From the IMG/VR virus record IMGVR_UViG_3300010354_000298, positions 1 through 34,004 of that record: a DNA stretch of 34,004 nt; one strand, given 5' to 3'. Below, in pieces: positions 8,821 to 28,038 of this stretch. The DNA is from a virus. The notes beneath the pieces are model-generated. The model ran no database searches. It was not told the DNA's origin and saw only the letters and a list, made by a program, of their open reading frames with translations. The stretch's first letter is position 1, and every line of letters begins with the position of its first letter. Position numbers and translations under genes: made by a program.

Positions 8821-9255
8821 ATGACAAAATTATATTCAAATAAAGTGATAGCTAAAGGCAAAGTAAGCCTTGGAAATCAAAATACAACTACCTTTAGGTA
8901 TAAAGGGTTTAGCTCTAAAGAATTTAAGAAGAATTTTAAACTATATGATTTTGAACTTGTAAAACAAGATATCCTAAATCATTTTTATATTCGTAAGGGC
9001 GAGAAACTAGAAAATCCTAAATTTGGGACTATAATTTGGGACATACTATTTGAAAACTTTACACCAGAAGTTAAAGAAGCCATTGCTAAGGACGTAGAAG
9101 AAATTATCAATTATGACATCCGTGTAAAGGTCAATTCTGTTAGCGTAGACAGTACAGATCAGGGTATAAGGATTGAAGCAGAGCTGGTCTACCTGCCATT
9201 AAATTTGGTGGATACACTTAGTTTGAACTTTGACAGAGAAAGCAATGAAGTATAA
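8821..9255 (+). CDS. 25: gp25-like baseplate wedge/sheath-initiator protein
   Basis: 144 residues, close to T4 gp25 (132). It has the family core FYIRKGEKLENPKFGTIIWD (about residues 57-76), followed by LFENFTPEVKEAI, the conserved acidic loop, and a C-terminal beta-hairpin ending LVDTLSLNFDRE. gp25 joins gp6 and gp53 in the wedge core and resembles the sheath subunit fold, nucleating sheath assembly. It is the last gene of the first late operon; its stop codon lies inside an 18-bp palindrome. Confidence 0.92.
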   Translation: MTKLYSNKVIAKGKVSLGNQNTTTFRYKGFSSKEFKKNFKLYDFELVKQDILNHFYIRKGEKLENPKFGTIIWDILFENFTPEVKEAIAKDVEEIINYDIRVKVNSVSVDSTDQGIRIEAELVYLPLNLVDTLSLNFDRESNEV

Positions 9256-9302: not shown

Positions 9303-12300
9303 ATGACAACCACATCAAGACAAAATAATTTAATTCTTAATCAAGATTGGAAAAGGATCTATCAGACATTTAAAAATGCTGATTTTAAATCTTATGATTT
9401 TGAAAATCTACGCAGGGTAATAGTAAATTACCTAAAGGAAAACTTTCCTGAAGATTTCAATGACTATATCGAAAGCAGCGAATATGTAGCCCTCATTGAC
9501 GCTATTGCATTCATGGGTCAAAGTCTAGCATTTAGAACTGATCTAGCTAGTAGAGAAAACTTTTTAGAACTGGCAGAAACTAAAGAATCAGTCATACGTC
9601 TAGCACGTTTAGTATCATATAATCCTAGACGTAATATTCCTGCAAGTGGATTACTAAAATTTGATACAATTACAACCACAGAGGGTGTATTAGACAGTAA
9701 CGGTGTTAATTTAGCAGGACAAACTATTATTTGGAACGACCCCACAAATCAAAATTGGTTTGAACATTTTCAATTAGTTTTAAATTCTGCAATGAGCGAT
9801 AACGTAGAATTTGGACGTAGTCAAGGAACCTCAACTATACAGGGAATAAAAGCTGATCAATATAGATTTAGATCAACTTTTGCAGATGTGCCTATTTTCA
9901 GTTTTGATAAAGTTGTAGCAGGTCGCCGTAGTTTTTTTGAAGTTGTAAGCACTAGCTTTTTAGCACAAGAAGATTTTTACGAAGAACCGCCAATACCAAA
10001 CGCTGAAATAGGATTCGTATATAGACAAGACGGCAAAGGAGCTGCCAGCGCCAATACTGGATTTTTCATGCTGCTCAAACAAGGTAGCTTAGAGCTTACA
10101 GATTTTTCTATAGATGTCCCAACCACTAATGAGATAGTTACAGTTGATGTTGGTGGTATCAACGATTCTGATGTTTGGTTGTTTTCTGTTAATTCAGACG
10201 GAACACAAGGTACACAATGGACTAAAGTTTCAAGTCTAATTGGGACAAACATTGCCTATAACAGTATTAATTCAGATATTAGAAACATCTATAATGTAAT
10301 ATCAAAAGATCAAGATAAAATTGATCTAGTGTTTGCTGATGGGGTATACGGAAATTTACCACAAGGTGCATTCAAAGTTTACTATAGAGTAAGTAGCGGT
10401 TTAAAATATAATGTTGCTCCTGCTGAAATGCGTGGAATCAATATTGCTATTCCTTATATTAATAAACAAGGGGTTGCTCACGAACTGTTAATAAGTTTAA
10501 GTTTAAAATATACAATTACCAATGCCTCTACAAGTGAAGACATTGATAGTATTAAGGCTAGAGCTCCAGCAATATTTTATTCGCAAAACAGAATGATTAC
10601 AGGTGAAGATTATAATCTTGCACCCTTAGCCAGCAGTCAAGATATCTTAAAAGTCAAAGCAATTAATAGAACATCTAGTGGTGTAAGCCGTAACTTTGAC
10701 ATTATTGACGCTAGCGGAAAATATTCTAATGTAAATGTATTTGCAGACGATGGTGTATTGTATAAACAAGAAACAGAAACTACATTAGGATTCAAATTTA
10801 CCAATAGAATTGATATTATTAATTTTATAAGAAATAGTATAGAACCCGTTTTTACAAATACAGATGTCTACAATTTTTATTTGACAAAGTTTAACAAGAT
10901 TCAATTTTCTGAAAACAATGTGATTTGGACACAGATCACAAAAGATATCAATCAGTCAACTGGATACTTTATTAACTCTATTGACAGTAGTCTATTAAAA
11001 GTAGGAACATATACAACTAATAACTTAAAATATTTCTTTACCGGAGCACTAATAAAATTTGTTCCACCAACAGGTAAGGCATTTAAAAAAGGTCAGCTTG
11101 TTGATTTAGATGTTAATGATTCTGAACAAGTTACTAGATTATGGACCAAGGTAATTAAGGTTACTGGAGATGGAACCAATGCAGGTAGAGGCGTTCTCAA
11201 CACAGGCTTTGGACCAATTATTTTTAACGATATAGTGCCAACAGGAGCCATTGCATCACGAATTTTGCCGCGTTTTGTTAACAATCTTCCAACAGCTCTA
11301 GAAAGCGAATTGGCAAATTTAATTTCATTGAATGTAAATTTTGGGCTACGTTATGATCAAACAAACAGTGAATGGAAAATTGTAACTGCGGCCAACCTTG
11401 ATTTATTAAGTGATTTTAGTCTTGGTCGTACAGGTGATACAACTAACAGTAATTTAGATAGTAGTTGGATTCTTGCATTTATTAAACAGCCTGACAGCTA
11501 CATTGTTAGAATTAGAAGTTTAGAATATATCTTTAGAAGTTTAGAACAAAACAGATTCTATTTTGACAATAATCAAAAAACATTGAACAGAAGCACAGGA
11601 AAGGTTGTTAAAGATACTGTGAAAATTTTAGGTATTAATCCTGATAAGGATTTAATTAATCCTTTGAAAACAGAATTTGTATTTGAAGTTTCTGATGGTA
11701 TTAAATTTGAAGATGGATATCAGAGTACTGACGAAATTAAACTTGCATTTGCAGATAGTGATGACGATGGAGTGATCGACGATCCAGAGTCATTTGAGCA
11801 GGTTGTAGGTGTTGATTTAGATTTGAAGTATCTGTTCTTTAAGAGAGAATTAGATCTCACCGGTAATACTGTCTACACTTATATTGACAATAGTAATGAT
11901 ACTGTATTAATTCAACAAACAGAAGTTGGAATAGATGTTACAGATTATACAGATGGACAATTAATTTATTTTTACAGTTCTACTGAAGATAGAGTTAAAA
12001 GAATTGATAGAGCAACAAATACATTGATTGTTGATCCAACTTATAAAGCAGTAATTGGCAGACCAAAGTTGAAGTTTCAATATTTTCATACAGCTAACAT
12101 TGATCGAAGAATAGATCCAAGCTCTAGCAACATTATGGACGTTTATCTGTTAGTAAGAAATTATGATACAGAATTTAGAAGATACCTAGCAGGTATTATT
12201 ACTACCGAACCAGATGTTCCCTCAAGTGATAGTTTAAGAGTTACATTTGGTGGAGAACTGAATCTTATCAAATCAATCAGTGATGAAATCATTTATCATC

Positions 12301-12707
12301 CTGTGAATTATAAGGTGTTATTTGGTTCTAAGGCAGCTCCAAAATTACAGGCGCAATTTAAAGTTGTAAAAAATCCTACAAAAACTATCAACGATAATGA
12401 TCTTAAAGTAAGAATCGTTAGCGCCATAGAAACTTTCTTTGATATAAACAACTGGGATTTTGGAGACAGATTCTATGTAGGCGAATTAATAACTTATGTA
12501 ACAAACCAAGTAGCACCAGATGTTAGTAACATGGTTATAGTTCCTGTACAGCCTGACCAAGCATTTGGTAGTTTATTTGAAATTCAAAGTCAACCAGAGG
12601 AAATTTTTATTAACGGCGCAACAGTAGATGATGTCATTATTGTTTCTGCAATTACAGCCACAGAAATTAAAGCTGATGTCAATAGTATAGTAAACACAAC
12701 GGTATAA
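9303..12707 (+). CDS. 6: gp6-like baseplate wedge protein, enlarged
   Basis: Central wedge protein whose dimers form the ring of the baseplate. 1134 residues compared with 660 in T4. The N-terminal domain is characteristic: DFENLRRVIVNYLKENFPED, then YVALIDAIAFMGQSLAFRTD and LVSYNPRR (about residues 36-120). The C-terminal gp6/J-like domain is at about 1015-1134 (IVSAIETFFDINNWDFGDRF, ELITYVTNQVAPDVSNMV). The extra length is a central beta-rich insertion of about 500 residues. That insertion includes an EF-hand-type loop at residues 818-829. The gene is separated by 3 bases from the giant gene, with which it is presumably co-transcribed from the late box at 9276. Confidence 0.9.
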   Translation: MTTTSRQNNLILNQDWKRIYQTFKNADFKSYDFENLRRVIVNYLKENFPEDFNDYIESSEYVALIDAIAFMGQSLAFRTDLASRENFLELAETKESVIRLARLVSYNPRRNIPASGLLKFDTITTTEGVLDSNGVNLAGQTIIWNDPTNQNWFEHFQLVLNSAMSDNVEFGRSQGTSTIQGIKADQYRFRSTFADVPIFSFDKVVAGRRSFFEVVSTSFLAQEDFYEEPPIPNAEIGFVYRQDGKGAASANTGFFMLLKQGSLELTDFSIDVPTTNEIVTVDVGGINDSDVWLFSVNSDGTQGTQWTKVSSLIGTNIAYNSINSDIRNIYNVISKDQDKIDLVFADGVYGNLPQGAFKVYYRVSSGLKYNVAPAEMRGINIAIPYINKQGVAHELLISLSLKYTITNASTSEDIDSIKARAPAIFYSQNRMITGEDYNLAPLASSQDILKVKAINRTSSGVSRNFDIIDASGKYSNVNVFADDGVLYKQETETTLGFKFTNRIDIINFIRNSIEPVFTNTDVYNFYLTKFNKIQFSENNVIWTQITKDINQSTGYFINSIDSSLLKVGTYTTNNLKYFFTGALIKFVPPTGKAFKKGQLVDLDVNDSEQVTRLWTKVIKVTGDGTNAGRGVLNTGFGPIIFNDIVPTGAIASRILPRFVNNLPTALESELANLISLNVNFGLRYDQTNSEWKIVTAANLDLLSDFSLGRTGDTTNSNLDSSWILAFIKQPDSYIVRIRSLEYIFRSLEQNRFYFDNNQKTLNRSTGKVVKDTVKILGINPDKDLINPLKTEFVFEVSDGIKFEDGYQSTDEIKLAFADSDDDGVIDDPESFEQVVGVDLDLKYLFFKRELDLTGNTVYTYIDNSNDTVLIQQTEVGIDVTDYTDGQLIYFYSSTEDRVKRIDRATNTLIVDPTYKAVIGRPKLKFQYFHTANIDRRIDPSSSNIMDVYLLVRNYDTEFRRYLAGIITTEPDVPSSDSLRVTFGGELNLIKSISDEIIYHPVNYKVLFGSKAAPKLQAQFKVVKNPTKTINDNDLKVRIVSAIETFFDINNWDFGDRFYVGELITYVTNQVAPDVSNMVIVPVQPDQAFGSLFEIQSQPEEIFINGATVDDVIIVSAITATEIKADVNSIVNTTV
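11754..11789 (+). other. EF-hand-type calcium loop encoded within gene 6
   Basis: Residues 818-829 read DSDDDGVIDDPE. Asp at loop positions 1, 3 and 5, Gly at 6, Ile at 8 and Glu at 12 match the canonical 12-residue EF-hand loop. No flanking helices are evident, so this is more like the isolated loops of dockerin or thrombospondin-type proteins. Confidence 0.6.
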
Positions 12708-12710: not shown

Positions 12711-15700
12711 ATGGAAAGAGAAACATACCCAAAAAGCGGAATTCCAATTAGAAGAACGGTAGATCTTTTACCTCAAAATTTTAAGACTGAAGCTAATTCT
12801 AAATTTTTTGCTGGAACGTTTGATCCACTAATACAACCAGGTAGTCTTGAAAAAATAGTAGGCTACTACGGACGCAGGTTTGGAAGAACCTACGCTAGTA
12901 AAGATGTTTATTTAGATACTGATCAAACATTGCGAAGTAGGTATCAACTTGAACCAGGTGTTGTTGTAAGAAACAATTTGCAAAAAGTTGAAAATTTCTA
13001 TGATTACATAGATTTTAAAAATCAATTAAAGTTTTTTAATAACACCTTAGAAAGAGATGATCTTATCACAGATCAAGATCACTACAGTTGGGACCCTCCC
13101 ATTGACTGGGATAAGTTTGCTAACTTTAGAGAATATTACTGGATTCCAGATGGTCCTCCTCCTATTACTATTACAGGACAAAGACAAAGCATTACTAGTA
13201 CCTATAGAGTTAGACTTGGTGTTACATCAACATGGATCTTCTTTCCAGACGGATTAACTAATAATCCTACAATTACATTGTACAGAGGACAAACCTATAA
13301 GTTTCAAGTTAATGCTCCTAATGAAGGATTTGTAATTAGAACAAATTACGATACAGGTAGTTTATTATACAAACCTTATTTGCCTTACAGCAAGGGTCAA
13401 TTAGCAGTTTATGATGGTAAACTATGGAGAGCTAAAACAGATATAGGTATTGCTGATCAGAGCACGATTAACGAATTCAGTCAAGATTGGGAATATCTAG
13501 AAGCTGCAAGTCAGGCAACATCCCTAGATTATAAAAAAGGTATCACTAATAACGGTGTGCAAAACGGTACACTTACATTTACTGTTCCATTAGATGCACC
13601 TGATGTCTTGTTCTATCAAAGTGCAACAGACATTAATCGATTTGGTAGATTCCTCATTGGCGATGTTGAAGATAATACTAAGATTGATGTAGAAAAAGAA
13701 ATCATAGGAAAAGCAACATATACAAGTAGTAATAGTATTTCATTTTCTAACGGCATGAAAGTTCGTTTTGAAGGTCAGGTATTACCTGAAAAATACAGTA
13801 GAGATACCTGGATAGTAGAAGGAGTTGGAGAATCTATTCAGTTGATTAGATTCCAGGATCTTGTACCTCCTGTACTATCTACAAACAGTTTAGAAATATT
13901 GTTTGACAATGGGGGTTTTGATTCTGAACCCTTTGATGATGCAACAACTTATCCAGAAGCTAAAGATTATGTAACCATCAATAGATCTAGTAGAGATGGC
14001 AATCCTTGGTCACGATATAATAGATGGTTTCACAAATCTGTATTAGAATTAGCACACAAATTATCGGACAGTGACTTTGATGCGCCGGAAACATCGAGGG
14101 CCAAGCGACCAATTATAGAATTTCAGCCACACTTAAAATTGTTTAATCATGGTGCTGTAGCAAAACAACCAGTTGACTTTGTAGATACATTTACCACTGA
14201 TGTGTTTTCTGTGATAGAAGGCAGTTTAGGTTACAATGTTGACGGAGAAGAACTGTTCAATGGTGCTAGACTACTAGTTGTTGCCGATACAGATAGTTTA
14301 GCTAATAATAAAATTTATACTGTAAACTTCATTCGTCATAACAACAGACGCCAAATTAATCTTATTCCTGCTGATGATGCAACATCAATTTTGGGAGAGG
14401 GTGTTTTTGTTCGAAGAGGAAATGTCAACAGAGGAACTATGTTCCATTTTGACGGTACAAATTGGACATCAAGTCAAAAGAAAACCGCAATTAATCAGAG
14501 TCCATTATTTGACGTATTTGATGAGAATGCAGTTAGCTTTGGTAATCAAGCTACCTATCCAGTAAGTACATTTATTGGTAGTAAAATATTAAGTTATAAA
14601 GTTGGCAATAGCGTCAACGACTCAGAACTAGGTTTTAGTTTAAGTTATCTAAACATTGATAATGTTGGTGACATACAGTTCAACTTTGATTGGGACGTTC
14701 AAACTTTTGAATATCAAGTTAATAAAGTAATTTTGAATAAAACTGTTCGAACAGGTTATTACTTTTTTACAGATGATGAAACATATGGTAATAATTGGAT
14801 AAAAATTGATCGTGATTTTTTACAACCAATTATTGATTCAACATTAATATCAGATACAACATTTTCTTTTGAAAACAATGCCCTTAAATGGGATTCCGTT
14901 CAAGACCAAAACATATTCAAAGTCTTGATTTATATTAACGGTAACAAATACAGAGGAACTTATACACGAGATAGAAATGTTTTTACCATTTCAACAGAAC
15001 TAGTCAAAGGCGACGTTGTAGTTTTAAAAGTTTATACATCAGAAGATCCTCATCTAGGTTACTACGAAATACCATTGGGTTTAGAAAAGAATCCTCTGAA
15101 TCAAGAAATTAAAACATTTACACTTGGCCAAGCTGTGGATCATGTGTCTACTGCTTTAGATTTATATGAAAATTTTCAAGGTGATTATCCTGGCACAAGT
15201 AATTTGAGAGATATTACAGGTTTTCAAAATCTTGGCAAGAGATTTTTAAAACATTCTGGAATCACACCGACTGTAATATCTTTATTGTGTGACAAAAATA
15301 TTAACATTGTAAAGGCTTTGCAATTTGGTAAAAAATCTTACAACGATTTTAAAAACAATTTTATTCGTATAGCAGAAACATTAGATTATGATGGTGATGT
15401 AGTAAACTTTGTTGATAGTATTTTAGAAGAACTTAATAAAGTTAAAACTAATGCAGATCCCTTTGCTGACAGCGACATGGTAGGCACAGGTGCCTTTACT
15501 TCTAAAGACTACATTGTTGAAGACGTTGGCATAAAAACTTTTGCTCTGAACGAAATTTTTACCCTAGATACCTTAAGTAGAAAAGCTGTCTATCTATATC
15601 TAAATGATGTACAACTATTACACAAGTACGATTATAACTTTAACACAACATTTGGTTTCGTTGAATTAACAGACCAAGTTGTTTTAAGTGAAGGTGATCG

Positions 15701-18700
15701 ACTACAGATAAGAGAATATCTATCAACAAGTTCATGTTTTATACCAGCTACTCCTACAAAATTAGGTTTGTATAAAAAATGGATTCCTAGAAAATACCTA
15801 GATACAAGTTATATAGATCCAGTAGAGGTCATACAAGGACATGACGGTAGTATCACGGTCACCTATGAAGATTTTAGAGATGACGTATTGCTTGAACTTG
15901 AAAAAAGAATTTTCAATAATATTAAACAGCAATACGACGAATCTGTATTTGATATAGATAATATTGTTGGTAGTTATTACTATGAACCTTTTTATACCAA
16001 ATCGCAGTTTGATGAAGTAATTTTTTATGATTTCTTAAAATGGATTCAAGATACTAACATTGATTATCTGACAAATCCGTACTTTGATTCAGAAAACAGC
16101 TTCACCTATACCTACAATCAAATGGCAGATCCAACTGGTCTAATTAATCTTCCAGGATGGTGGAGAGGTGTTTATAAATGGTTCTACGATACAGATAGAC
16201 CTCAGGTATGTCCATGGGAGATGTTAGGATTTACTGAAAAACCAGATTGGTGGGAAGCTGAATACGGACCTGCTCCTTATACAAAAAACAATTTAATTTT
16301 GTGGGAAGATCTTTCTAATGGAATTATTAGGCAAGGACCAAAAGCAGGAGTTCATCCTAGATACAAACGTGCTACATTATTGGACCATATCCCAGTCGAC
16401 GGCGATGGTAATCTATTAAGTCCTTTTGATAGCGGCCTAGCAAGAAACTTTGTTTTATTGAATAACAAAGGCGAATTTAAATTTGGCGATTTTAGTCCGG
16501 TTGAAAGTGCATGGAGATCTAGCAGTGAATATCCGTTCAGTGTTATCACTGCTATGTGTGTTTTACGACCTTATGAATTTATCATTGAAAGTTTAGACAG
16601 GTCAAGAATTAAGATTAATCGTATTGGACAAACAGTTCATTCTGATACCGGATTGTTCACTAAAAACGAAGACATTGTTTATCCTGTAGTAGGTGGGGAT
16701 CAGACTTCAGGTTTAATTAACTACATCGTAGATTTTGTTAAGAAAACTGGATTTGATTATACTTTAGTTAAAAATAAAATTGATCAAATAGACGTTAACC
16801 TTTCTGTTAGAATGAGCGGCTTTGTAGATCAACCTCAACAAAAGTTCTTGTTGGACAGTAAGAATCCTAGGTCAACTACAAGTAGTATTTTTATTCCGCC
16901 TGAAAATTATGACATTATTTTTAATGTTAGCTCACCAATTCGCAGTCCTAGCTACAGCGGTATGATCGTAGAAAAGGTAGAGACTGGTTGGAAAATTTAT
17001 GGTTATGATTTTTACGAACCTTATTTTACAGTATATGATCCACTAAAGAGCGAAAGTGATCCATTGATTAGTGTAGGCGGTATCAGCGAAAATTTTATCG
17101 ATTGGAAACCAAATCTTGTTATTACTAACGGAACAATAGTTAGATACAACGACACTTTTTATAGAGCATTACGTTCACATACTTCTACAGATACCTTTGA
17201 AATCTCATTATGGCAAAGATTGCCAAAACTACCTCTGGTAGGAGCACTTGAAGTTTTCCGTAGAAAAAATTGGCAATTTGCATCTAGACGAATTGCCTAT
17301 GGAACAGTTTTCAAAACACTTCAAGAAGTAGCTGATGTAATGTTGGGCTACGAAGAACATTTAATGAGGCAAGGTTTTGTTTTTAATGATTATGACACAA
17401 CCTTAGAAACACCTAAAAATTGGACCACGTCAGTTAAAGAATTTTTATACTGGACTAGACATAAATGGGCATTAGGATCTATTATCACATTAAGTCCTCT
17501 AGCTTCAAGAATAAAAATTAATCTTGAAGTAGGAGTGGTAGATAGCCTATTAGATAGTTTTTATGATTATAATATTTTAACTGATAATGGCAATGTATTA
17601 CCTGCTGATTTTATCAACGTCACTAGAGATTTTAGAGAAATCACAGTTGATACTACTAACACAGATGATGGTATATATTTCTTCAAGTGTTATCTTGTAC
17701 TAAAAGAACATGTTACAATTTTTTCTGATCGTACTGTTTTCAACGATGTAATGTACGATAAACCTACAGGATATAGACAAGACAGAGTAAAATGTCGAGG
17801 TTTTAGAACAGTAGATTGGGATGGTGATTACACAAGTCCTGGTTTTGTTTTTGACGAAGTTGATATTCAAGTTTGGCAACCTTTCACAGATTACAAATTA
17901 GGAGACATTGTAAATTACAAGTCTTATAATTGGGTAAGTCTTGTCAACCAGTCGGGGGTAGAATCCTTTGACGATACCAAATGGTCAAAATTAGATACTG
18001 TACCAACAAAGGGTTTAGTAAGAAATTTTGATTACAATGTAAATTTATTTGAAGATTTTTATAGTGTTGATGCAGACGGATCCGGAGCTAGCCAGCGAGA
18101 ATTAGCTAGACATCTAATTGGATATCAAACTCGTGATTACCTACAAAATCTAGCTGAAGATGCTGTAACACAATTTAAATTGTATCAAGGATTTATAAGA
18201 GAAAAAGGAACTTTAAATTCTGTAGTAAAAGTTTTTGATAAACTATCAAGGGTAAGCGCAGATAGTATCGTTCTTAATGAAGAATGGGCAATCCAAACTG
18301 GCAGATTAGGTGGCATTGATCAAACACAAGAAGTTGAGTTCAATATTTACAAACGAGATTTGTTGGTTAATCCACAGCCTGTGTTAATTACTGCCGGGCC
18401 AAAACCTACAGATAATCTAGACAAATACCTAAGAGTAAATCAGACAGATTTTAACAGATCATACTTGCCCTACACTACGAATATTAATCCTGTGATCAAG
18501 TATACTGATATCACAAGAGATGCAGGATATGTAAAAACAAATCAAGTTGACGTAATTGTAAAAAATGAAGATGAATTATTGTCTTTAGACGCTGCGTCAA
18601 TTGTTGAAAATAGTCACATATGGCTAACCTTTGACAAGAACACTTGGAATGTTTACAGATACAATCTATCTAAGTCTTTGATAATTCTTGGCATAGATGA

Positions 18701-21700
18701 AGTCACTTCCAACAAGACACTAGTTATTACCTATAATCAACCTTTGCAATTTCAAATTGATGAAATAATTGGCATTGTTGGTCTAGGCAAGTTAGATGGA
18801 TTTCACAGAATAATATCTGTTGAAGGTGTTACATTAACAATAGCACAACCCGCAGTTTATGCGGCACCAGAACTACCAGATACAAGTTCATTACAATATA
18901 ATACCTACACATTAACATCTGCAAGATATAATAATTATCAAGATGTTGAACAACAAAGTGCATCTTTATTAAAAGCAGGATCAAAAATATTTGTTGATAA
19001 TAAAGAAGAAAACACTGAAGATTGGGAAGTTATTGAAAAAACAAAATTGTTCAATTCTGAATCTCTAAGCGAATACGGATCAACTGATCCAAGAAACGTA
19101 GGCAGAGATGTAGAATATATCCCGTCATTGAATGCAGTTGTTTCTGGCGTGCCAAACAGCAACATAGCAGTGATGTATAAGGAATCCGGTACAGGATTAA
19201 AAGTTCAACAGATTATATTTCCAGAATCCGGATACGAAAATTATCTAAACAAGAGCTTTGGTGATGCTGTGGCAGCAAGCCCAGACGGACAATGGTTAGC
19301 CATTGGAGCCCCATTAGCTTCGGGTGTTCCAAATAGATTTAAGGGTTATTTTGCTGCCAATGAAATTTACATGGCCGGCGATCTTGTTTTGTTTAATGGA
19401 CAATTGTGGGAATCTCTAAGCGAACAAAATACTATTGGATTTGACCCTCAAGATGACGGAAGTACTGATACACTATTAGCTACATCTAGTAAATTTAGAG
19501 ATTTAGATTGGAAGTTAGCTACTATAGTAAATGCTAATTTAACCGGAACACAAGGACCAACTAATCAAGGTGCAGTATTTCTTTACAAGTATACAAATAA
19601 TCTATGGAACTTAGAGGAAATTTTATTAAGCCCAAGAATAGCTGAAAATGAAAAATTTGGACATAAAATTTCTATTGCTGTAAGTGGCAACAATTATTAT
19701 ATGAGCGTCTCTGCTCCAGGATCATTAGACAATCTAGGCAGGGTGTATCTTTATAAATTTATAGGTAGCGGAGCAAGAACTACCCAGCAAGTATTGACCA
19801 TTGCTGGTAATGTTGCGGTTAATTTCACTACTAACGTAATCACATTTAATAGAAATCACAATTATGTTACTGGACAGTTGTTACGTTATATTAACGGAAC
19901 CTATGGCGGAGAAGATAAATCAACAGCCACATCTCCACCACCTCCAGAGGATTATACTATTCTTTATGCTATCAGAGTTGATGCAACAAGAATACAACTA
20001 GCATTAAACATTGAAGATGCAGCATCTGGTAGTGCAATAAATTTAAGAGACTTTGGCATCGATGATTCAAGTAGTCATACATTTATCAATCAATTCATCA
20101 CAGGATGGCAACATTTAGATAATGTAAATTATAGAGGCATTTACGATACTACAGGAACTGCTTTATATGCCGTGGATTCTATTGTATGGTATAACGGTAG
20201 ACTTTATCAAGCTCTACAAGAAACTCTAGGCAATGTTACGCCGTTAGATCAGAACAATGATTGGCAGTTGTTAGATAATGCTGCCACGCAAAATTCTTTA
20301 CCGTCAAATATTTCTTTAGAAGATACTCCAACTGATGGTTCGTCAACTGACAGTAGTATGGAAGTTGGTTCAGTTTATCCGGTAGTTGCAGTCAATCAAA
20401 TTATTGTAGGTGAAGTTTATACTATTGAAAATTTTGGCACCACTGATTTTACATCAATTGGTTATAATCCTGCTGCAAGTAATTTAACTTTTAAGGCAAC
20501 AGCAGTGGGAGTTGGCACAGGTACCGTAAGATGGAACTCCTATCAGTTCGCTGAACTTGTAAATTCAGGTGATTTATTTGGTTCTGCAATGTCAATGAAT
20601 AGGGACGGCAGCATATTAGTTGTTGGAGCACCAGAATCAAATGGACAATACTTCAGTAATTTTAGAGGCATCTGGACAAGTTATCAAGAATATTTTGAAG
20701 ATGATGTTGTAAAATACAACGGAAGTTACTACAGATTAAGGGATACTGTATTAGATTCTGCACTCGATAGTACACAAATTTTAACCAGCGTAAATCAAAT
20801 ACCAACCAACGGTGATCCTTGGTATATTGTTGATTCTTCAGATAATGTGTCATCTGGTAAAATATTTGTTTACAGACGTTCGTCTAATGATGTATACGAA
20901 TTAACACAGTCAATCAGCAACGATAATTTAGACATTGTGTCAGATCTTAGTATCTCGGAAGATATCAAATCTGGTGACAACTTTGGCACAGCAGTAGATA
21001 TTGATTACACAGGCACAACAATTATTGCAAGTAGCCCAAAGGCTGATAACAATTTCACAGATCAAGGCGCTGTGTATGTGTTTAAGACAACTGATGTGTC
21101 TAGTGGATCATATAGACTAAAACAGAAATTAATTAGCCATGAATCTTACGCTAATGAATTTTTTGGTAGCGATATTGCTATCAGTAGTGCTACTGAACGT
21201 ATCGTAGTTGGTGCTAGAAATGCTACATTTAAGTTACCTGTAACATTTGATAGTAATTCAACATCCTTTGATAATACAAATACTAGGTTCTTTAACGAAG
21301 AAGGTAATACTGGGCAAGCCTACGTATTTGATAGAAAAGACCAAACTTATTTCCTTACAGAAAAACTTGAAGCAGATAATTTTCAAGATTGGGAATCTTT
21401 TGGTTATAGTGTTGATTGTTATGGAAGTGTAATAGCCGTAGGGTCACCATCGTTCAGAAATAATTTTTACAGGAAATTAAATGGAGTTGTACCAACAGGA
21501 GGTACAGGCGTAGATCTAGTTATAAATCTTACAGTTCTTAATGGATCAATCGTTGCAATTGAAATTGATGATCCTGGAGCTGGATATGTGGTCAGTGACT
21601 TTAATAACGATCTAGATGTATTGACCATTCCAGGTTCTACTAGCATGGACAATGCTACATTTAAAATTGCCACAGTCAATGGTACTGGCGGTGTACTAAC

Positions 21701-24700
21701 AACATTTATTAACTATAATGGAAGCTCTTATGCTACTCCAGCCGAGACGTTAGAAACTGGCAATGTAAGATTATTTAGAAAAGATACAACAAAGACATCT
21801 TGGAATACCATAGCTACTAGAAATGATCTAGTAGATATCAGTATGTTTAATAGTATCAGTGTATATGATGATATTAATAAAATTAAACTAGCCGATGTTG
21901 AGATTGTTGATCATTATAAGTTGAAAATTTTAGGTGAAGCAGATCAAGAAATTAAATTTAAAACAATGTACGATCCTGCTGTATACACCAACGGTACTGA
22001 ACTACAGGAAGTTGATGAAAATCAAGCATGGTTTGAAAAGCATGTAGGTCAGCTATGGTGGGATATCAGCAAGGTTAAATTCTTAAATTATGAACAAGGC
22101 GATATCGATTATAGAGTTGGTAATTGGAATCAGCAGGCCTACGGATCAAATATAGATGTATATGAATGGGTAGAGACAAAGTTAACACCAACTCGATGGG
22201 CTGCTCTTGCCGATACCAATGAGGGATTAGCTCAAGGTATTTCAGGTCAACCATTGTATGCAGACAATTCTGTATATAGTGTAAGAGTGCTAACCAATCC
22301 TAACACAGGTGAAGATACTGAAACCAAATACTACTACTGGGTTAAAAATTCAACTATTATTCCAAAAAATGTAATAGGACGCAGATTATCTGCAGCCGCA
22401 GTGGCAACCTATATTGATAATCCAATTTCCACTGGTATTCAATTTTTAAGCCCAATAGCAGCTGATAAATTTTTAGCTTTTAACTTTGACAGCTTAATCT
22501 CTACAGATTACGCTTTGATAAACATTCAGTACAAAAACGACAACAGTATGTTGAATCCTGTACACAGTGAATATCAATTAATAACAGAAGGGGTAGCAGA
22601 TAGTCTGCCTAATGAAGCATTAGAGAATAAATGGATTGACAGTTTAGTAGGTTATGACAGATCTGGTAAAACAGTTCCAGATGATACAATTCCTATTAAA
22701 CAGCGTTACGGTTTGTCTGTAAGACCTCGTCAGTCTATGTTTGTAGATAGATTTTCTATTCTGCGTAGAACTTTAGATAATGTCAATACTGTACTACAAA
22801 CACGTGCCTTTGCAGATACAATTAATTATATTAATTTGAATCTAGTTGAAAACGTGCCAAATGAAATTTTAAATGAATACGATCAAGCAGTTGATACTCT
22901 AATTGATTTAGAACAGGTCGGAACTACAAGGGTAAGGAAAGCTGTATTACAGGCAAATATTGTTGATGGTCAAGTTGATACTATAGATATTCTTGACAGC
23001 GGATTTGGATATAAAAATACTCCATTTATTACTATAGAAGGTGATGGTACAGGTGCCCTAGCAACAATCACCACAGACGGCCAAGGCAAGGTTAATTCTG
23101 TAACAGTAACTTCTAAAGGAAGGAATTATACAACTGCTATTGTTCAAATAAGGTACTTCTCTGTACTAGTACGAAATGATGATTCAATTAAAAATTATTG
23201 GAGTATCTATGCCTGGGATGACATTAGAAGCACATTCTTTAGATCAAAATCTCAAGCCTATGATACGACAAAATATTGGACATTTGCAGACTTTTGGGCA
23301 GAGGGATACGGACCCACATCTCGTATCGTAAAAGAAATTTTAGACATATATCAAGAGCCAAGTTTAGAATTACAAGTTGGCGATCTAGTGCAGGTAAAAG
23401 AATTTGCCAATGGCGGATGGGCAGTATTAGAGAAAACAGAATCTGGTTTAGGTAATCTCTTAGACAATTATAATCTTGTTGGACGTAATAACGGTACTAT
23501 TCAATTATTAGTCAATGAATTAGCACCTGATCCCGGAGTTGGTTATGATAGAAGATCTAGCTTTGATGCTGATCTATATGATATAAACCCTACAAGAGAA
23601 TTACGTAATATTCTAAATGCTGTCAAACAAGATATTTTCATCGACGACCTTAGAGTAGAATGGAATAAATTATTCTTCACAGGGTTACGTTATGTGTTTG
23701 TTGAACAAAAATATGTGGACTGGGCATTCAAAACAAGTTTTGTAAATGCTACTCATAATGTTGGTGACTTAGAACAAAAAGTAAGTTATAAGAACGATAA
23801 TCTCGATAGTTTCTTTCAATATATCGAAGAAGTAAAACCATACAAAACTACTGTAAGAGAATATGTAAGCAAGTATACAGATATAGATCGAGTAGGTAGT
23901 GCAACTACTGATTTTGATTTGCCAGCATATTACGACACAGTTGAGAAAAAGATTTTACCAATCAAATCAGATTCTTCATTGTTAAACACTTATCCTTACA
24001 AGTGGTGGACAGATAATAACGGATATTCAGTTGTTGAAATATCTGTGTCAAATGGTGGGACAGATTATACTGATCCTCCTACAGTAGTAATTGAAGGAAA
24101 CGGTGCCGGTGTGACAGCACAAGCATACATTAGTAACGGATCTGTAACAGCCATTAAGGTATTATCAGAAGGTTTTGGTTATACAAAAACACCAACTATT
24201 CTTTTGGTCGGTGGTAACGGATCCTCACAAAACAAGGCCAAAGCGGCTGCTATTTTAGGTAAAACACCAGTTAGAAATATTAATCTTACTGTTAAGTTTG
24301 ATAGAATAGCCAAGCAAGGATATTTTCAAGAATATAATGTAGCTGAAACATTTACAGCTACAGGTTTAACTGCGGTATTCAATTTGAAATATGCTCCTAA
24401 TCGTGACAAGAGCAAGATTACTGTGTCAAAGAACGGTGATATAGTTTTAAGCACAGATTATACATTAAGTCTTTATTATAACGAGATAAATGGCTACAAT
24501 CTTCTAAGTGGCAAATTAACATTCAAATCTACACCTGCAAACGGAGATTTGATCACAGTGAGCTATGAAAAAAATATAGGCTTATTTGATAGTCTTAATA
24601 GAATTGATAGGCATTATAATCCTGTGTCAGGAATGAAGGGCAAAGAACCAGCACAGTTGATGACCGGTATAGATTTTGGTGGTGTACAGATTCAAGGAAC

Positions 24701-27359
24701 TACATTTGATGTAACCGGTGGTTGGGACGCATTACCTTGGTTTACTGATAGTTGGGACAGCGTTGAATCAAACAGCGACTACTATTACATAGCAGACGGC
24801 AGTACAATTTCTGTAACCTTGCCATTTGTGCCAGCAGTTGGTGAACAAATTTCTATATACTGGAAACCTGCAGGAAACAGAATTCCTGCTAATATTGATA
24901 CCCTTGGTCCTAATACTGCACCACAAGTAATTTTACTGCCAGAAACTTCTGAGCCAAGAACTATAAGAGTTGACGATCCAAATTGGGTTGAAAACTGGGA
25001 TTCAAGTAACACAACAAATCCAAATGCTCAAATGCCAACATTTGTTGGGGATGGTTCAACTACCGTTGTAGAAATAGGACAGTACATAAGTGTTCAGGCT
25101 GGTGATACATTAATATTCCGTAAGTTAGACAGCGACGGATCTGTAACAATTACAGACGTTAACTTATTAGATACTTTGATTACAGGTGGATCTTTGTCTA
25201 ATATTTCAGGTGCGTATGTAACAGCCACAGGAGCTACCCCAGAAGAAATTGTTATTGACGGCGATAAATTTATAAGCCCAGATCAAGTACCGGCACCAGA
25301 AGAAAACATTCCTGGTCAAGTTCTTGAAAGTGTATCTATAAAAGTTTATCAAACAAATAAAACTGGAGCTGCACCTTTACAAAATAGAGTTATCTATGCA
25401 GACGGTGCTACTAGAAGATTTGCCATCGGATTAGAAATTACTGAAGATCGTTCAATTCTAGTATACTTGAACAAAGTCAAACAAGAAAAGATTCAAGTTG
25501 ATTCTAGTTTAGACTATGACATTGATTATGTAGCTAATGAGATTATTTTTACTAATATCCCACCGTTGGGGGCTATAGTTGAAATTATAGCTTTTGGTTT
25601 AGGCGGTATATCTTTACTAGATTACCAAGAATTTGTTGCTGATGGCGAAACACGTTTGTTTTTAACCAAAGCAGTTTATAGTCAAACTGAATCTGTGTTG
25701 GTAACAGTTGATGGTGTTGCATTTGATACTGGATTCAGTAATAGTTCAGAGTTTACAGATACTCAAAATAGAGTTATTGTACAATTTGGTTTTGCCCCAG
25801 CGGACGGCACAATGGTTAAGGTAGTAAGTTTAGGAGCTGCATTAGATACAGATTCTTCTCAACAAAGCATAGTAAGAGTCAATCAACAGGTATTCTATCA
25901 TGATGGTAGTTCAACATCCTATGAATTAGATAGATTTGTTAACTTATCTCGTGCATCCGCTGAATCAAGTATTTTAGTAACATTGAATGGCGCTCAACTT
26001 AAGGGTCCTGAAAACACTCTGGTTGTCTATGACGGCAGTAATAATCAAATAGCAGTAGGAACAGATCCTTTAAGATTTCCAGGCTCGATTACATACCTAA
26101 CAATTAAGGTTTTAATTAACAATACTCTAGCCACTGCCGTAGTAGATTGGACTTTAAATTCTACAACCAATGTGATTACCGTAAGGCAGGATCTATTAGA
26201 ACTTAACGACGAAATTAGAGTTGTTATTGATGCATTTGCTGATTATACCCTATCGGGTGACACCTTAACTTTATCGAGTGCTATTCTAAACACAATGAAT
26301 AACAATGATGATAGTACTCAAAAGGACACCTTAGAAGTTACTTGGTTTAGTGAATATCCAAGTATGGATATTGTCACAGATCAATATGCCGGTGGAAAAG
26401 TTAATTATAAGTTATCAAGAATTCCAGTAAATGAAAGATATGTTTGGGTGTACCTAAACGGAACAAGATTAACACTCAACCAAGATTATAAAGTAAGTAT
26501 TCAAAGAGGCGTGGTATATTTAAATGTGGATTCAACATTAACAGATGAATTAAAAATTGTTGAATTTGGAAATGATATCTACAAATTTCCAAGCGCCTAT
26601 GAAATTTACAAAGATATGCTTAATCGTTATCAGTTTAAACGATATAGTAGAAATGAAGTGAAGTTAACCACGGCTCTGAATTACTACGACACCACTATAA
26701 TTGTGAACGACGGAACGCAATTATACGATCCAACTGGTCGTTCTGCACCCGGAGTTGTTTATATTAACAATGAAAAAATTGAATATTTGCAGAAAAATGG
26801 AAATATACTGTCTCAACTTAGAAGAGGTAGTTTAGGAACCGCTATACCTGAAGTACATCCTGTTGATAGTTTTGTATCAGATAGCGGCCCATCTGAAATA
26901 ATTCCTTATAACGAAACACAACACAGACTTGATTTTGTCAGCGACGGCAGCACACTTCTAGTAGGACCTTTAGATTTTACTCCTTTACAAGGTACTAGAA
27001 GTTCTTGGTACAAAGAAACTATTCCTACAGAATACGGCCCATGCGACCAAGTTGAAGTTTTTGTTGCAGGAACACGCTTAAGGAAAAATCCTATGGACGT
27101 ATGGGACGAAGAACTAGGTGCATACAGCCCTTCAGGCGACAAACAAGTAGAGGCGGAATTTAGCGTTGACGGAGCAAGTCCATACATTAGATTAACCAAA
27201 GCTGTGGCCGCCGGCACACGTATTACGATAATTAGAAGAACAGGTAAAACCTGGTATGATAGAGGCACGACCACTGCAACAACGGGTAAAACAATGAACG
27301 AAAATAGCACAGCTATTACACGTTTTATTTTACAAAAGACAACTATTATACCAGAATAA
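12711..27359 (+). CDS. Giant 4882-residue baseplate/fibre protein (gp7 position), mosaic of adhesin-like modules
   Basis: One uninterrupted frame of 14.6 kb, right after gene 6 where T4 has gene 7 (about 1030 residues). The N-terminal part (about 20-150) is a phage-type conserved start (KIVGYYGRRFGR, YDYIDFKNQLKFF, PPIDWDKFANFREYYW). Residues 1142-1201 are a Trp-rich core. Residues 1767-1848 hold an acidic helical stretch ending GFIREKGTLNSVVKVFDKL, loosely like a T4 gp7 segment. Residues 2128-3037 form an FG-GAP-like propeller with inserts. Six CBM5/12-like modules, three GxGY modules and a C-terminal run of beta-sandwich repeats (about 3879-4866) follow the sequence coordinates listed separately. 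There is no signal peptide or membrane segment. The likely role is wedge assembly plus fibre or receptor platform. The gp7 equivalence is inferred from position; I did not see a full-length match. Start: ATG at 12711, 3 bases after gene 6, weak RBS. Confidence 0.8.
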   Translation: MERETYPKSGIPIRRTVDLLPQNFKTEANSKFFAGTFDPLIQPGSLEKIVGYYGRRFGRTYASKDVYLDTDQTLRSRYQLEPGVVVRNNLQKVENFYDYIDFKNQLKFFNNTLERDDLITDQDHYSWDPPIDWDKFANFREYYWIPDGPPPITITGQRQSITSTYRVRLGVTSTWIFFPDGLTNNPTITLYRGQTYKFQVNAPNEGFVIRTNYDTGSLLYKPYLPYSKGQLAVYDGKLWRAKTDIGIADQSTINEFSQDWEYLEAASQATSLDYKKGITNNGVQNGTLTFTVPLDAPDVLFYQSATDINRFGRFLIGDVEDNTKIDVEKEIIGKATYTSSNSISFSNGMKVRFEGQVLPEKYSRDTWIVEGVGESIQLIRFQDLVPPVLSTNSLEILFDNGGFDSEPFDDATTYPEAKDYVTINRSSRDGNPWSRYNRWFHKSVLELAHKLSDSDFDAPETSRAKRPIIEFQPHLKLFNHGAVAKQPVDFVDTFTTDVFSVIEGSLGYNVDGEELFNGARLLVVADTDSLANNKIYTVNFIRHNNRRQINLIPADDATSILGEGVFVRRGNVNRGTMFHFDGTNWTSSQKKTAINQSPLFDVFDENAVSFGNQATYPVSTFIGSKILSYKVGNSVNDSELGFSLSYLNIDNVGDIQFNFDWDVQTFEYQVNKVILNKTVRTGYYFFTDDETYGNNWIKIDRDFLQPIIDSTLISDTTFSFENNALKWDSVQDQNIFKVLIYINGNKYRGTYTRDRNVFTISTELVKGDVVVLKVYTSEDPHLGYYEIPLGLEKNPLNQEIKTFTLGQAVDHVSTALDLYENFQGDYPGTSNLRDITGFQNLGKRFLKHSGITPTVISLLCDKNINIVKALQFGKKSYNDFKNNFIRIAETLDYDGDVVNFVDSILEELNKVKTNADPFADSDMVGTGAFTSKDYIVEDVGIKTFALNEIFTLDTLSRKAVYLYLNDVQLLHKYDYNFNTTFGFVELTDQVVLSEGDRLQIREYLSTSSCFIPATPTKLGLYKKWIPRKYLDTSYIDPVEVIQGHDGSITVTYEDFRDDVLLELEKRIFNNIKQQYDESVFDIDNIVGSYYYEPFYTKSQFDEVIFYDFLKWIQDTNIDYLTNPYFDSENSFTYTYNQMADPTGLINLPGWWRGVYKWFYDTDRPQVCPWEMLGFTEKPDWWEAEYGPAPYTKNNLILWEDLSNGIIRQGPKAGVHPRYKRATLLDHIPVDGDGNLLSPFDSGLARNFVLLNNKGEFKFGDFSPVESAWRSSSEYPFSVITAMCVLRPYEFIIESLDRSRIKINRIGQTVHSDTGLFTKNEDIVYPVVGGDQTSGLINYIVDFVKKTGFDYTLVKNKIDQIDVNLSVRMSGFVDQPQQKFLLDSKNPRSTTSSIFIPPENYDIIFNVSSPIRSPSYSGMIVEKVETGWKIYGYDFYEPYFTVYDPLKSESDPLISVGGISENFIDWKPNLVITNGTIVRYNDTFYRALRSHTSTDTFEISLWQRLPKLPLVGALEVFRRKNWQFASRRIAYGTVFKTLQEVADVMLGYEEHLMRQGFVFNDYDTTLETPKNWTTSVKEFLYWTRHKWALGSIITLSPLASRIKINLEVGVVDSLLDSFYDYNILTDNGNVLPADFINVTRDFREITVDTTNTDDGIYFFKCYLVLKEHVTIFSDRTVFNDVMYDKPTGYRQDRVKCRGFRTVDWDGDYTSPGFVFDEVDIQVWQPFTDYKLGDIVNYKSYNWVSLVNQSGVESFDDTKWSKLDTVPTKGLVRNFDYNVNLFEDFYSVDADGSGASQRELARHLIGYQTRDYLQNLAEDAVTQFKLYQGFIREKGTLNSVVKVFDKLSRVSADSIVLNEEWAIQTGRLGGIDQTQEVEFNIYKRDLLVNPQPVLITAGPKPTDNLDKYLRVNQTDFNRSYLPYTTNINPVIKYTDITRDAGYVKTNQVDVIVKNEDELLSLDAASIVENSHIWLTFDKNTWNVYRYNLSKSLIILGIDEVTSNKTLVITYNQPLQFQIDEIIGIVGLGKLDGFHRIISVEGVTLTIAQPAVYAAPELPDTSSLQYNTYTLTSARYNNYQDVEQQSASLLKAGSKIFVDNKEENTEDWEVIEKTKLFNSESLSEYGSTDPRNVGRDVEYIPSLNAVVSGVPNSNIAVMYKESGTGLKVQQIIFPESGYENYLNKSFGDAVAASPDGQWLAIGAPLASGVPNRFKGYFAANEIYMAGDLVLFNGQLWESLSEQNTIGFDPQDDGSTDTLLATSSKFRDLDWKLATIVNANLTGTQGPTNQGAVFLYKYTNNLWNLEEILLSPRIAENEKFGHKISIAVSGNNYYMSVSAPGSLDNLGRVYLYKFIGSGARTTQQVLTIAGNVAVNFTTNVITFNRNHNYVTGQLLRYINGTYGGEDKSTATSPPPPEDYTILYAIRVDATRIQLALNIEDAASGSAINLRDFGIDDSSSHTFINQFITGWQHLDNVNYRGIYDTTGTALYAVDSIVWYNGRLYQALQETLGNVTPLDQNNDWQLLDNAATQNSLPSNISLEDTPTDGSSTDSSMEVGSVYPVVAVNQIIVGEVYTIENFGTTDFTSIGYNPAASNLTFKATAVGVGTGTVRWNSYQFAELVNSGDLFGSAMSMNRDGSILVVGAPESNGQYFSNFRGIWTSYQEYFEDDVVKYNGSYYRLRDTVLDSALDSTQILTSVNQIPTNGDPWYIVDSSDNVSSGKIFVYRRSSNDVYELTQSISNDNLDIVSDLSISEDIKSGDNFGTAVDIDYTGTTIIASSPKADNNFTDQGAVYVFKTTDVSSGSYRLKQKLISHESYANEFFGSDIAISSATERIVVGARNATFKLPVTFDSNSTSFDNTNTRFFNEEGNTGQAYVFDRKDQTYFLTEKLEADNFQDWESFGYSVDCYGSVIAVGSPSFRNNFYRKLNGVVPTGGTGVDLVINLTVLNGSIVAIEIDDPGAGYVVSDFNNDLDVLTIPGSTSMDNATFKIATVNGTGGVLTTFINYNGSSYATPAETLETGNVRLFRKDTTKTSWNTIATRNDLVDISMFNSISVYDDINKIKLADVEIVDHYKLKILGEADQEIKFKTMYDPAVYTNGTELQEVDENQAWFEKHVGQLWWDISKVKFLNYEQGDIDYRVGNWNQQAYGSNIDVYEWVETKLTPTRWAALADTNEGLAQGISGQPLYADNSVYSVRVLTNPNTGEDTETKYYYWVKNSTIIPKNVIGRRLSAAAVATYIDNPISTGIQFLSPIAADKFLAFNFDSLISTDYALINIQYKNDNSMLNPVHSEYQLITEGVADSLPNEALENKWIDSLVGYDRSGKTVPDDTIPIKQRYGLSVRPRQSMFVDRFSILRRTLDNVNTVLQTRAFADTINYINLNLVENVPNEILNEYDQAVDTLIDLEQVGTTRVRKAVLQANIVDGQVDTIDILDSGFGYKNTPFITIEGDGTGALATITTDGQGKVNSVTVTSKGRNYTTAIVQIRYFSVLVRNDDSIKNYWSIYAWDDIRSTFFRSKSQAYDTTKYWTFADFWAEGYGPTSRIVKEILDIYQEPSLELQVGDLVQVKEFANGGWAVLEKTESGLGNLLDNYNLVGRNNGTIQLLVNELAPDPGVGYDRRSSFDADLYDINPTRELRNILNAVKQDIFIDDLRVEWNKLFFTGLRYVFVEQKYVDWAFKTSFVNATHNVGDLEQKVSYKNDNLDSFFQYIEEVKPYKTTVREYVSKYTDIDRVGSATTDFDLPAYYDTVEKKILPIKSDSSLLNTYPYKWWTDNNGYSVVEISVSNGGTDYTDPPTVVIEGNGAGVTAQAYISNGSVTAIKVLSEGFGYTKTPTILLVGGNGSSQNKAKAAAILGKTPVRNINLTVKFDRIAKQGYFQEYNVAETFTATGLTAVFNLKYAPNRDKSKITVSKNGDIVLSTDYTLSLYYNEINGYNLLSGKLTFKSTPANGDLITVSYEKNIGLFDSLNRIDRHYNPVSGMKGKEPAQLMTGIDFGGVQIQGTTFDVTGGWDALPWFTDSWDSVESNSDYYYIADGSTISVTLPFVPAVGEQISIYWKPAGNRIPANIDTLGPNTAPQVILLPETSEPRTIRVDDPNWVENWDSSNTTNPNAQMPTFVGDGSTTVVEIGQYISVQAGDTLIFRKLDSDGSVTITDVNLLDTLITGGSLSNISGAYVTATGATPEEIVIDGDKFISPDQVPAPEENIPGQVLESVSIKVYQTNKTGAAPLQNRVIYADGATRRFAIGLEITEDRSILVYLNKVKQEKIQVDSSLDYDIDYVANEIIFTNIPPLGAIVEIIAFGLGGISLLDYQEFVADGETRLFLTKAVYSQTESVLVTVDGVAFDTGFSNSSEFTDTQNRVIVQFGFAPADGTMVKVVSLGAALDTDSSQQSIVRVNQQVFYHDGSSTSYELDRFVNLSRASAESSILVTLNGAQLKGPENTLVVYDGSNNQIAVGTDPLRFPGSITYLTIKVLINNTLATAVVDWTLNSTTNVITVRQDLLELNDEIRVVIDAFADYTLSGDTLTLSSAILNTMNNNDDSTQKDTLEVTWFSEYPSMDIVTDQYAGGKVNYKLSRIPVNERYVWVYLNGTRLTLNQDYKVSIQRGVVYLNVDSTLTDELKIVEFGNDIYKFPSAYEIYKDMLNRYQFKRYSRNEVKLTTALNYYDTTIIVNDGTQLYDPTGRSAPGVVYINNEKIEYLQKNGNILSQLRRGSLGTAIPEVHPVDSFVSDSGPSEIIPYNETQHRLDFVSDGSTLLVGPLDFTPLQGTRSSWYKETIPTEYGPCDQVEVFVAGTRLRKNPMDVWDEELGAYSPSGDKQVEAEFSVDGASPYIRLTKAVAAGTRITIIRRTGKTWYDRGTTTATTGKTMNENSTAITRFILQKTTIIPE
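13371..13505 (+). repeat. CBM5/12-like module 1 in the giant gene
   Basis: Residues 221-265: KPYLPYSKGQLAVYDGKLWR followed by a closing W-E-Y-L. It matches the pattern aromatic-x(n)-G-D/Q-x-V-x-Y-x-G-x-x-W/Y-x-A...W-x-x-L of short chitin/cellulose-binding modules. It stands apart from the other five, in the N-terminal region. Confidence 0.55.
16134..16313 (+). other. Trp-rich conserved-looking core of the giant protein
   Basis: Residues 1142-1201 contain eight Trp, in NLPGWWRGVYKWFYDTDRP, CPWEMLGF, KPDWWEAEYGPAPY and NLILWEDL. The density of Trp, Pro and Tyr is far above the rest of the protein and suggests a buried structural core or a surface-binding patch. I do not recognise the fold. Confidence 0.5.
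17100..17222 (+). repeat. CBM5/12-like module 2 in the giant gene
   Basis: Residues 1464-1504: DWKPNLVITNGTIVRYNDTF followed by YRAL and a closing LWQRL. It has the same strand-loop pattern as the other copies. Confidence 0.5.
17874..17993 (+). repeat. CBM5/12-like module 3 in the giant gene
   Basis: Residues 1722-1761: WQPFTDYKLGDIVNYKSYNW, then VSL and the closing TKWSKL. It is the best match to the Y-x-x-G-D-x-V-x-Y pattern among the six. Confidence 0.6.
18006..18257 (+). other. Helical segment of the giant protein, weakly gp7-like
   Basis: Residues 1766-1849 contain NLFEDFYSVDADGSGASQRE, ARHLIGYQTRDYLQNLAEDA and GFIREKGTLNSVVKVFDKL. An acidic helical stretch followed by K-G-x-x-x-S-x-x-x-x-F recalls the C-terminal half of T4 gp7, but only from memory and over a short span. 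Confidence 0.35.
19344..19520 (+). repeat. CBM5/12-like module 4, inserted in propeller blade 2
   Basis: Residues 2212-2270: YFAANEIYMAGDLVLFNGQL, then WESL and a closing LDWKLA, with a Gly/Asp loop between. It lies between the inner strand (LAIGAP) and outer strand (GAVFLYKY) of blade 2. Confidence 0.58.
20136..20273 (+). repeat. CBM5/12-like module 5, inserted in propeller blade 3
   Basis: Residues 2476-2521: YAVDSIVWYNGRLYQAL and a closing NDWQLL. It is part of the long insert after blade 3. Confidence 0.58.
20397..20534 (+). repeat. GTTDFTxIG module in the giant gene
   Basis: Residues 2563-2608: VGEVYTIENFGTTDFTSIG, then FKATAVGVGTGTV. This short module recurs widely in phage and bacterial surface proteins (pattern G-x-x-Y-x-I-x-x-x-G-T-T-D-F-T-x-I-G...F-x-A-T...G-T-G-T). 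Its function is unknown to me. Confidence 0.6.
20667..20831 (+). repeat. CBM5/12-like module 6, inserted in propeller blade 4
   Basis: Residues 2653-2707: GIWTSYQEYFEDDVVKYNGS, then YYRL and a closing DPWYIV, with a longer loop than the other copies. It sits between VVGAP and the outer strand GKIFVYRR. Confidence 0.58.
21513..21638 (+). repeat. GxGY module 1, inserted in propeller blade 7
   Basis: Residues 2935-2976: LNGSIVAIEIDDPGAGYV followed by LTIPGS. It matches the recurring pattern G-x-(I/V)-x-x-I-x-(I/V)-x-x-x-G-x-G-Y of phage structural proteins, though only half of the module is clear. Confidence 0.5.
22944..23150 (+). repeat. GxGY module 2 in the giant gene
   Basis: Residues 3412-3480: VDTIDILDSGFGYKNTPFIT, then EGDGTGALATITTDGQGK and VNSVTVTSKGRNYTTAIV. 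This is a full two-half copy of the module. Confidence 0.65.
24030..24221 (+). repeat. GxGY module 3 in the giant gene
   Basis: Residues 3774-3837: VSNGGTDYTDPPTVVIEGNG, then VTAIKVLSEGFGYTKTPTIL. It is the closest relative of module 2 within the gene, with both halves present. Confidence 0.68.
24345..27310 (+). repeat. C-terminal run of beta-sandwich-like repeats in the giant gene
   Basis: Residues about 3879-4866 hold at least six divergent units of the form (A/V)DG-x-T-x-x-F-x-L...V-x-V-x-(L/V)-N/D-G...Y-x-(V/I)...V-x-F...P-x-x-G-x-x-(V/I)-x-V. They begin near 24345, 24783, 25390, 25630, 25891 and 26385. Examples are YADGATRRFAIG, VADGETRLFLTK and YHDGSSTSYELD, with strands ILVYLNKVKQ, VLVTVDGVAF, ILVTLNGAQL and VWVYLNGTRL. 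A separate PGVVYINNEKIEY...LRRGSLGT motif at about 26750-26850 and a final conserved-looking VEVFVAGTRLRKNP segment end the protein. Confidence 0.6.
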
Positions 27360-27366: not shown

Positions 27367-28038
27367 ATGAATGAAAACCAAGAGCCAAACATGCTAAAAA
27401 ATAACACTCTAGAACAAAAAGTTCCTGAAAAACACCCCGATGAAAACGGTGGTTTTCATGTTGAAGGGCATATAAAGATTTTTGATCCCCAAACAAAAGA
27501 AGTCTTTATTGATAAAAGAAACGCTATTCATTATGAAAATATGAGTGTAGCTATGGTTAATTCTCTGTCAAATCAAGGACAAGGATGGATTTACCAGATG
27601 GTTTTTGGTAATGGAGGTACAACTGTTGATCCTACAGGATTAATAAGCTATCTAACACCTAATACTGTTGGAGTGAACACAAGTTTGTATAATCAAACAT
27701 ATGCAAAAGTTGTAGATCAAAATGCAGCAGAAAATTTGGATCCTATAAGAAACAAAATGGAAGTACGTCATATAAGTGGCGCTACATACAGCGACATTAT
27801 TATTAGCTGTCTATTAGATTACGGCGAACCAGATGGTCAAGAAGCTTTTGATAATAGTCAGGATATGAGCGGTAATTTTGTATTTGATGAATTGGGTTTA
27901 CGTTCTTACAGCGATAGCGGCACTGGTAAACTTTTAACTCACGTAATTTTTCACCCTGTACAAAAATCATTGAATAGACTACTTCAAATTGATTACACAA
28001 TTCGTGTACAGAGCTTAACTGGATTTACAGAGGTGTAA
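27367..28038 (+). CDS. Conserved-looking virion structural protein of unknown role
   Basis: 223 residues. The polar N-terminus (1-35) leads into VEGHIKIFDPQTKEVFIDKR and NAIHYENMSVAMVNSLSN (about 32-70). Gly/Thr-rich FGNGGTTVDPTG follows, then a compact C-terminal part with FVFDELGLRSY and THVIFHPVQKSLNRLLQIDY. There is no membrane segment, signal peptide or catalytic motif. Placed between the giant baseplate gene and the fibre cluster, it is probably a baseplate or fibre-connecting protein; whether it equals a T4 gp8-gp11 function is not visible. Two starts compete: ATG 27367 has no RBS and would be missed by a transcript from the overlapping late box. ATG 27391 (Met9) would lie 23 bases inside that transcript. 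Confidence 0.75.
   Translation: MNENQEPNMLKNNTLEQKVPEKHPDENGGFHVEGHIKIFDPQTKEVFIDKRNAIHYENMSVAMVNSLSNQGQGWIYQMVFGNGGTTVDPTGLISYLTPNTVGVNTSLYNQTYAKVVDQNAAENLDPIRNKMEVRHISGATYSDIIISCLLDYGEPDGQEAFDNSQDMSGNFVFDELGLRSYSDSGTGKLLTHVIFHPVQKSLNRLLQIDYTIRVQSLTGFTEV

Follow-up and report, generated by a model that had tools for sequence, protein, structure and literature searches.

The giant gene of the window (the whole stretch of DNA analysed, an IMG/VR record of 34,004 bases) belongs, as a typical representative and not an oddity, to PHROG 10938, a protein family that is known but little studied. Its product is likely to serve as baseplate wedge protein in the gp7 slot of an aquatic myovirus of the jumbo type, with an inserted module of propeller and CBM domains that is probably surface-binding. 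The reading frame begins with ATG at position 12711 and ends at 27359 on the plus strand. It comprises 4,882 codons with no internal stops, making this an intact gene with exactly the limits and the 4882-residue product given in an earlier note on this DNA. Stop-free runs reached at most 279 codons when the window was shuffled 100 times. Compared with relatives at 65% amino-acid identity, the gene differs at frequencies of 0.28, 0.20, and 0.53 at the three codon positions (approximately 4,860 codons). As the differences fall mainly at the third position, the full frame is under purifying selection.

Gene order and family

The giant gene directly follows gp6 in a gp25-gp6 cluster, as do homologues of PHROG 10938 in jumbo phages; T4 gp7 also comes directly after gp6. 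The genes at the centre of the cluster are:

8821..9255 (+), gp25-type baseplate wedge gene
9303..12707 (+), gp6-type baseplate wedge gene encoding 1134 aa, immediately upstream of the giant gene (phrog_10646, E 8.8e-282)
12711..27359 (+), giant baseplate-region gene encoding 4882 aa, PHROG 10938 family
27367..28038 (+), gene encoding 223 aa directly after the giant gene, kept in five jumbo phages (37-56% identity)

On the plus strand the full order is a phrog_12050 virion structural protein, gp53, a phrog_11190 virion structural protein, a gp5-type hub/lysozyme, gp25, gp6, and the giant gene. The minus strand encodes SbcC- and SbcD-type recombination subunits (gp46/gp47 type) and a late sigma factor. 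Downstream of the giant gene, the 223-aa gene is followed by three separate fibre-type genes with paralogous N-termini. These three lie in tandem at 28043-33890; they have in common an N-terminal region of approximately 200 residues (35-37% identity) and differ in their C-termini, and the first encodes a phage tail collar domain. The arrangement gp25-gp6-giant is also found in phi30-2, Atu_ph07, Escherichia phage UB, Vibrio phage 2.275.O, Phosso, RaK2, and CBB.

PHROG 10938, annotated as 'virion structural protein' and 3,324 positions long, matches the giant protein in three stretches (E 4e-301), and the match was recovered again in three separate pieces of the protein. Homologues are encoded by the jumbo phages UB (3,323 aa), RaK2 (3,326 aa), CBB (3,340 aa), Vibrio phage 2.275.O (3,771 aa), SCTP-2 (3,807 aa), phi30-2 (3,857 aa), Atu_ph07 (4,449 aa), and Phosso (4,555 aa). 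The conserved core of the protein, scanned against IMG/VR, returned at least 594 stretches encoding relatives, typically of 4.5-5.1 kaa. The reading frame is complete in 42 of 80 loci, where it encodes 3,127-5,068 aa (4,459-5,068 aa in 39 of the 42), and two incomplete copies among the 80 exceed 5,190 aa. Ranked by rising length, the giant gene is 33rd of 40 aligned copies, the median of which is 4,645 aa.

Giants also occupy the same slot in Kyanoviridae, at 4,156 aa in S-SM2, 4,225 aa in ACG-2014f, 5,422 aa in S-CREM1, 6,737 aa in S-WAM1, and 7,312 aa in P-SSM4 (lengths computed from listed coordinates). Their annotations read gp7, baseplate wedge subunit, or baseplate wedge initiator, and PHROG holds a further 'baseplate wedge subunit' family, phrog_2885, of 4,179 positions. 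Judged by the lengths of the PHROG 10938 relatives, the Kyanoviridae genes, and phrog_2885, giant size is ordinary at the gp7 position, and the earlier description of it as exceptional does not hold. Nor does the idea of a compact genome with 43% taken by a single gene: that share reflects the fact that the window is only a fragment, 34 kb long. The contigs that carry relatives, up to 199 kb and without end repeats, are often fragments too.

Orthologues of the giant protein are known from virions, in agreement with its earlier placement as a virion protein of the tail or baseplate region in the gp7 slot. CBB_236, the 3,340-aa homologue, was found in CBB virions by mass spectrometry with 21 peptides and 7.7% coverage (PMC5259590). 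The same method detected 17 unique peptides of phAPEC6 gp245 (382 kDa; 7.6% coverage) in virions, and its gene lies directly after the baseplate wedge gene gp244 (PMC7247149). From this gene order and the mass, we infer that gp245 is an orthologue of the giant protein. Together with RaK2 ORF070 and the PA5oct-type, Atu_ph07, and Phosso proteins, CBB_236 and gp245 belong to one family of giants encoded after gp6, of which those of CBB and, judged by position, phAPEC6 are associated with virions. The present protein differs from those of the isolates in being longer (4,882 aa against 3,323-4,555 aa) and in carrying an FG-GAP propeller, which Pfam does not find in the six isolate homologues scanned.

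A near-constant scaffold with one variable segment

Conserved blocks of the giant protein were defined by blastp and an alignment of 40 sequences. With the modules found within and between them, they are:

12750..15515 (+), conserved scaffold block 1, residues 14-935, common to jumbo-phage homologues (22-37% identity)
15723..18395 (+), conserved scaffold core, residues 1005-1895, defined by blastp and alignment and modelled with AlphaFold2
17094..17228 (+), CBM5/12-like module, residues 1462-1506 (Pfam CBM_5_12; VIA-align Z of about 7 to chitin-binding modules, 45 residues aligned, rmsd 1.2)
17859..17996 (+), second CBM5/12-like module, residues 1717-1762, in aquatic relatives and absent from eight jumbo isolates
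18024..18605 (+), helical region with KGT at residues 1832-1834, a weak candidate for a gp7-type core
18555..21803 (+), variable segment, residues 1949-3031, an FG-GAP propeller with CBM5/12-like insertions
21801..24020 (+), conserved scaffold block 3, residues 3031-3770
22908..23165 (+), GxGY-type beta repeats, residues 3400-3485 approximately
24018..24305 (+), GxGY-type beta repeats, residues 3770-3865 approximately
24306..27356 (+), C-terminal part, residues 3866-4882 (1,017 residues), conserved in aquatic relatives

Across the 40 aligned copies, the segment equivalent to residues 1949-3031 is 662 aa long at its shortest and 1,341 aa at its longest, against 3,725-4,048 aa for the remainder of the chain. 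This one segment carries 95% of the variance in total length, with which it correlates at 0.95, against 0.15 for the rest. The protein therefore consists of a near-constant scaffold of approximately 3,800 aa and a single variable propeller/CBM segment. That length change is concentrated here makes the segment a concrete, testable site of host adaptation inside a baseplate protein.

The propeller, CBM-like, and GxGY modules described in the earlier note all exist. Both Pfam domains exceed their curated cut-offs, FG-GAP_2 at 7.6e-21 (74.5 bits against 23) and CBM_5_12 at 8.3e-13 (48.6 bits against 26.2), and the GxGY-type repeats match several baseplate-wedge PHROGs. In aquatic copies, the variable segment contains FG-GAP_2 in 40 of 40 and CBM_5_12 in 37 of 40. 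By contrast, Pfam detected no FG-GAP repeat in the six isolate homologues scanned, five of which gave weak single CBM matches, all below the cut-off. Because the propeller and the extra CBM are present in the aquatic copies and were not detected in the isolates compared, they are probably features of the aquatic group that were added later onto an older scaffold. The C-terminal part (residues 3866-4882) is matched by no PHROG and by no Pfam domain above the cut-off, and its similarity to isolates is limited to short matches, with phi30-2 at 4621-4712 and with Phosso at 3950-4028. Pfam Tail_P2_I was absent from a permissive scan of 24 family members.

The presence of propeller, CBM, and beta-repeat modules in a single chain had been read as a fusion of the wedge scaffold with surface-binding tail fibres. 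The modules are indeed in one chain; nothing found here at the sequence level supports the fusion itself. Tail-fibre and connector PHROGs match the giant protein only over short stretches, and the three fibre-type paralogues persist as separate genes downstream. Moreover, related phages already possess a 3.3-kaa version in which no propeller is detected, so insertion of a module fits better. The propeller/CBM segment has the look of a piece inserted into a fixed scaffold, not of a fused fibre, and we regard an origin by fusion of wedge and fibre genes as improbable.

An AlphaFold2 model of residues 1005-1960 reached a pLDDT of 75 and a pTM of 0.57, with most of the first 660 or so residues confident. 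In the PDB only its CBM modules are matched, over 45 residues each time (VIA-align), by 3wx7, the chitin-binding module of a chitin oligosaccharide deacetylase (Z 7.4, 1.2 A), and by one Milano baseplate receptor-complex chain (Z 8.2, 1.1 A). Against BFVD viral predictions, the best matches of the core model were Atu_ph07 and uncultured phage proteins. In the PDB, Foldseek returned nothing at E 0.001 or below. Searches there with phmmer and profiles likewise gave no match to the whole protein and, for the core, only that of the CBM to chitinase A1. Nothing solved thus matched the scaffold, although a model this long could hide single-domain matches. Giants in the gp7 slot are abundant in aquatic phages, yet their conserved scaffold is without any solved-structure match here.

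The model also bears on the possibility that the gene encodes a tape measure or an enzyme such as a polymerase, both mentioned in the earlier note, and lies beside baseplate genes by chance. Extreme length would suit such a protein. The core model (residues 1005-1960), however, is mixed alpha/beta and not a long helical rod, Pfam detects no enzyme domain in the giant protein, and both PHROG and gene order group it with baseplate wedge genes. This explanation is therefore strongly disfavoured, and we consider it very improbable indeed.

Relationship to gp7

T4 gp7 occupies the same gene position as the giant gene and has a weak helix-KGI/KGT-helix motif in common with it. The T4 protein is approximately one fifth of the giant's length, and the two show no significant direct match in sequence or fold. 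In pelagimyophages and cyanomyophages, T4 gp7 has been reported absent and apparently replaced by another protein, VrlC (PMC7029224). T4 gp7 and cyanophage gp7 have a helix-KGI/KGT-helix region in common, which hhalign aligns at a probability of 96.6%. The Kyanoviridae gp7 giants (P-SSM4, S-WAM1, S-CREM1, and S-SM2) resemble the present protein in their slot after gp25 and gp6, their giant size, their GxGY repeats, and a KGT motif, but significant similarity is confined to the GxGY repeats, the KGT region matching weakly. A match to S-CREM1 was dropped as evidence of homology on the same ground, being limited to those repeats.

When the giant family was scanned against cyanophage gp7 in 32 profile windows, the top two were overlapping windows at the KGT (residue 1832), with weak scores (E 0.004-0.008, probability 5-8%). 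A profile comparison focused on the KGT region also gave a weak match (score 24.3, E 0.0041). With the T4 row placed at another KGI, the comparison scored 25.5 (E 0.0025, probability 12%), the best of 60 column shuffles scoring 19.4. Profile comparison did not match the N-terminal block to the helix at the N-terminus of cyanophage or T4 gp7. A model of the KGT region was poor (pLDDT 66, pTM 0.35), as would be expected if the region needs partner chains, and had no meaningful PDB match. Among the PDB matches listed for the core model and for the low-confidence KGT-region model, T4 gp7 does not occur. The weak helix-KGT-helix motif suggests homology to T4 gp7; we propose that the giant protein probably works as gp7 does, but we stop short of counting it among the proven T4 gp7 proteins.

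A different reading of these results is that the giant protein is a baseplate or tail-tip adhesin, or part of a fibre network, mounted on the wedge, with gp7 function residing elsewhere or lost. It would account for the failure of T4 gp7 to match significantly in sequence or fold and for the abundance of adhesin-like modules. Yet the giant lies directly downstream of gp6 in homologues from many phages, conservation extends over the whole of its scaffold of approximately 3,800 aa, and the window shows no further candidate for gp7. We judge this reading unlikely, though less so than a fibre fusion.

Proposed role in the baseplate

As a gp7-slot wedge protein, the giant scaffold would assemble with gp6 and gp25 into the baseplate wedge, the helical KGT region being the part that may pack against gp6. 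If the protein is indeed a wedge component, six copies would be present per virion. From the type of module, the FG-GAP propeller and the CBM5/12-like modules are predicted to project outward and to contact glycans of the cell surface reversibly in the vicinity of the baseplate. Specific recognition would then fall to the separate fibre proteins encoded at 28043-33890. By analogy with T4, contraction would be triggered by the wedge.

More tentatively, aquatic jumbo-type phages might carry the propeller and CBM domains as a swappable adhesion cassette inside the fixed wedge scaffold. The wedge could in this way join host adsorption and take part in changes of host range, a proposal that we think possible rather than probable.

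The cluster of the Salicola phage SCTP-2 contains a second giant. A gene encoding 3,096 aa (4662-13952 of stretch L004), which has no match to gp6 by blastp, occupies the gp6 position there, directly upstream of the giant homologue.
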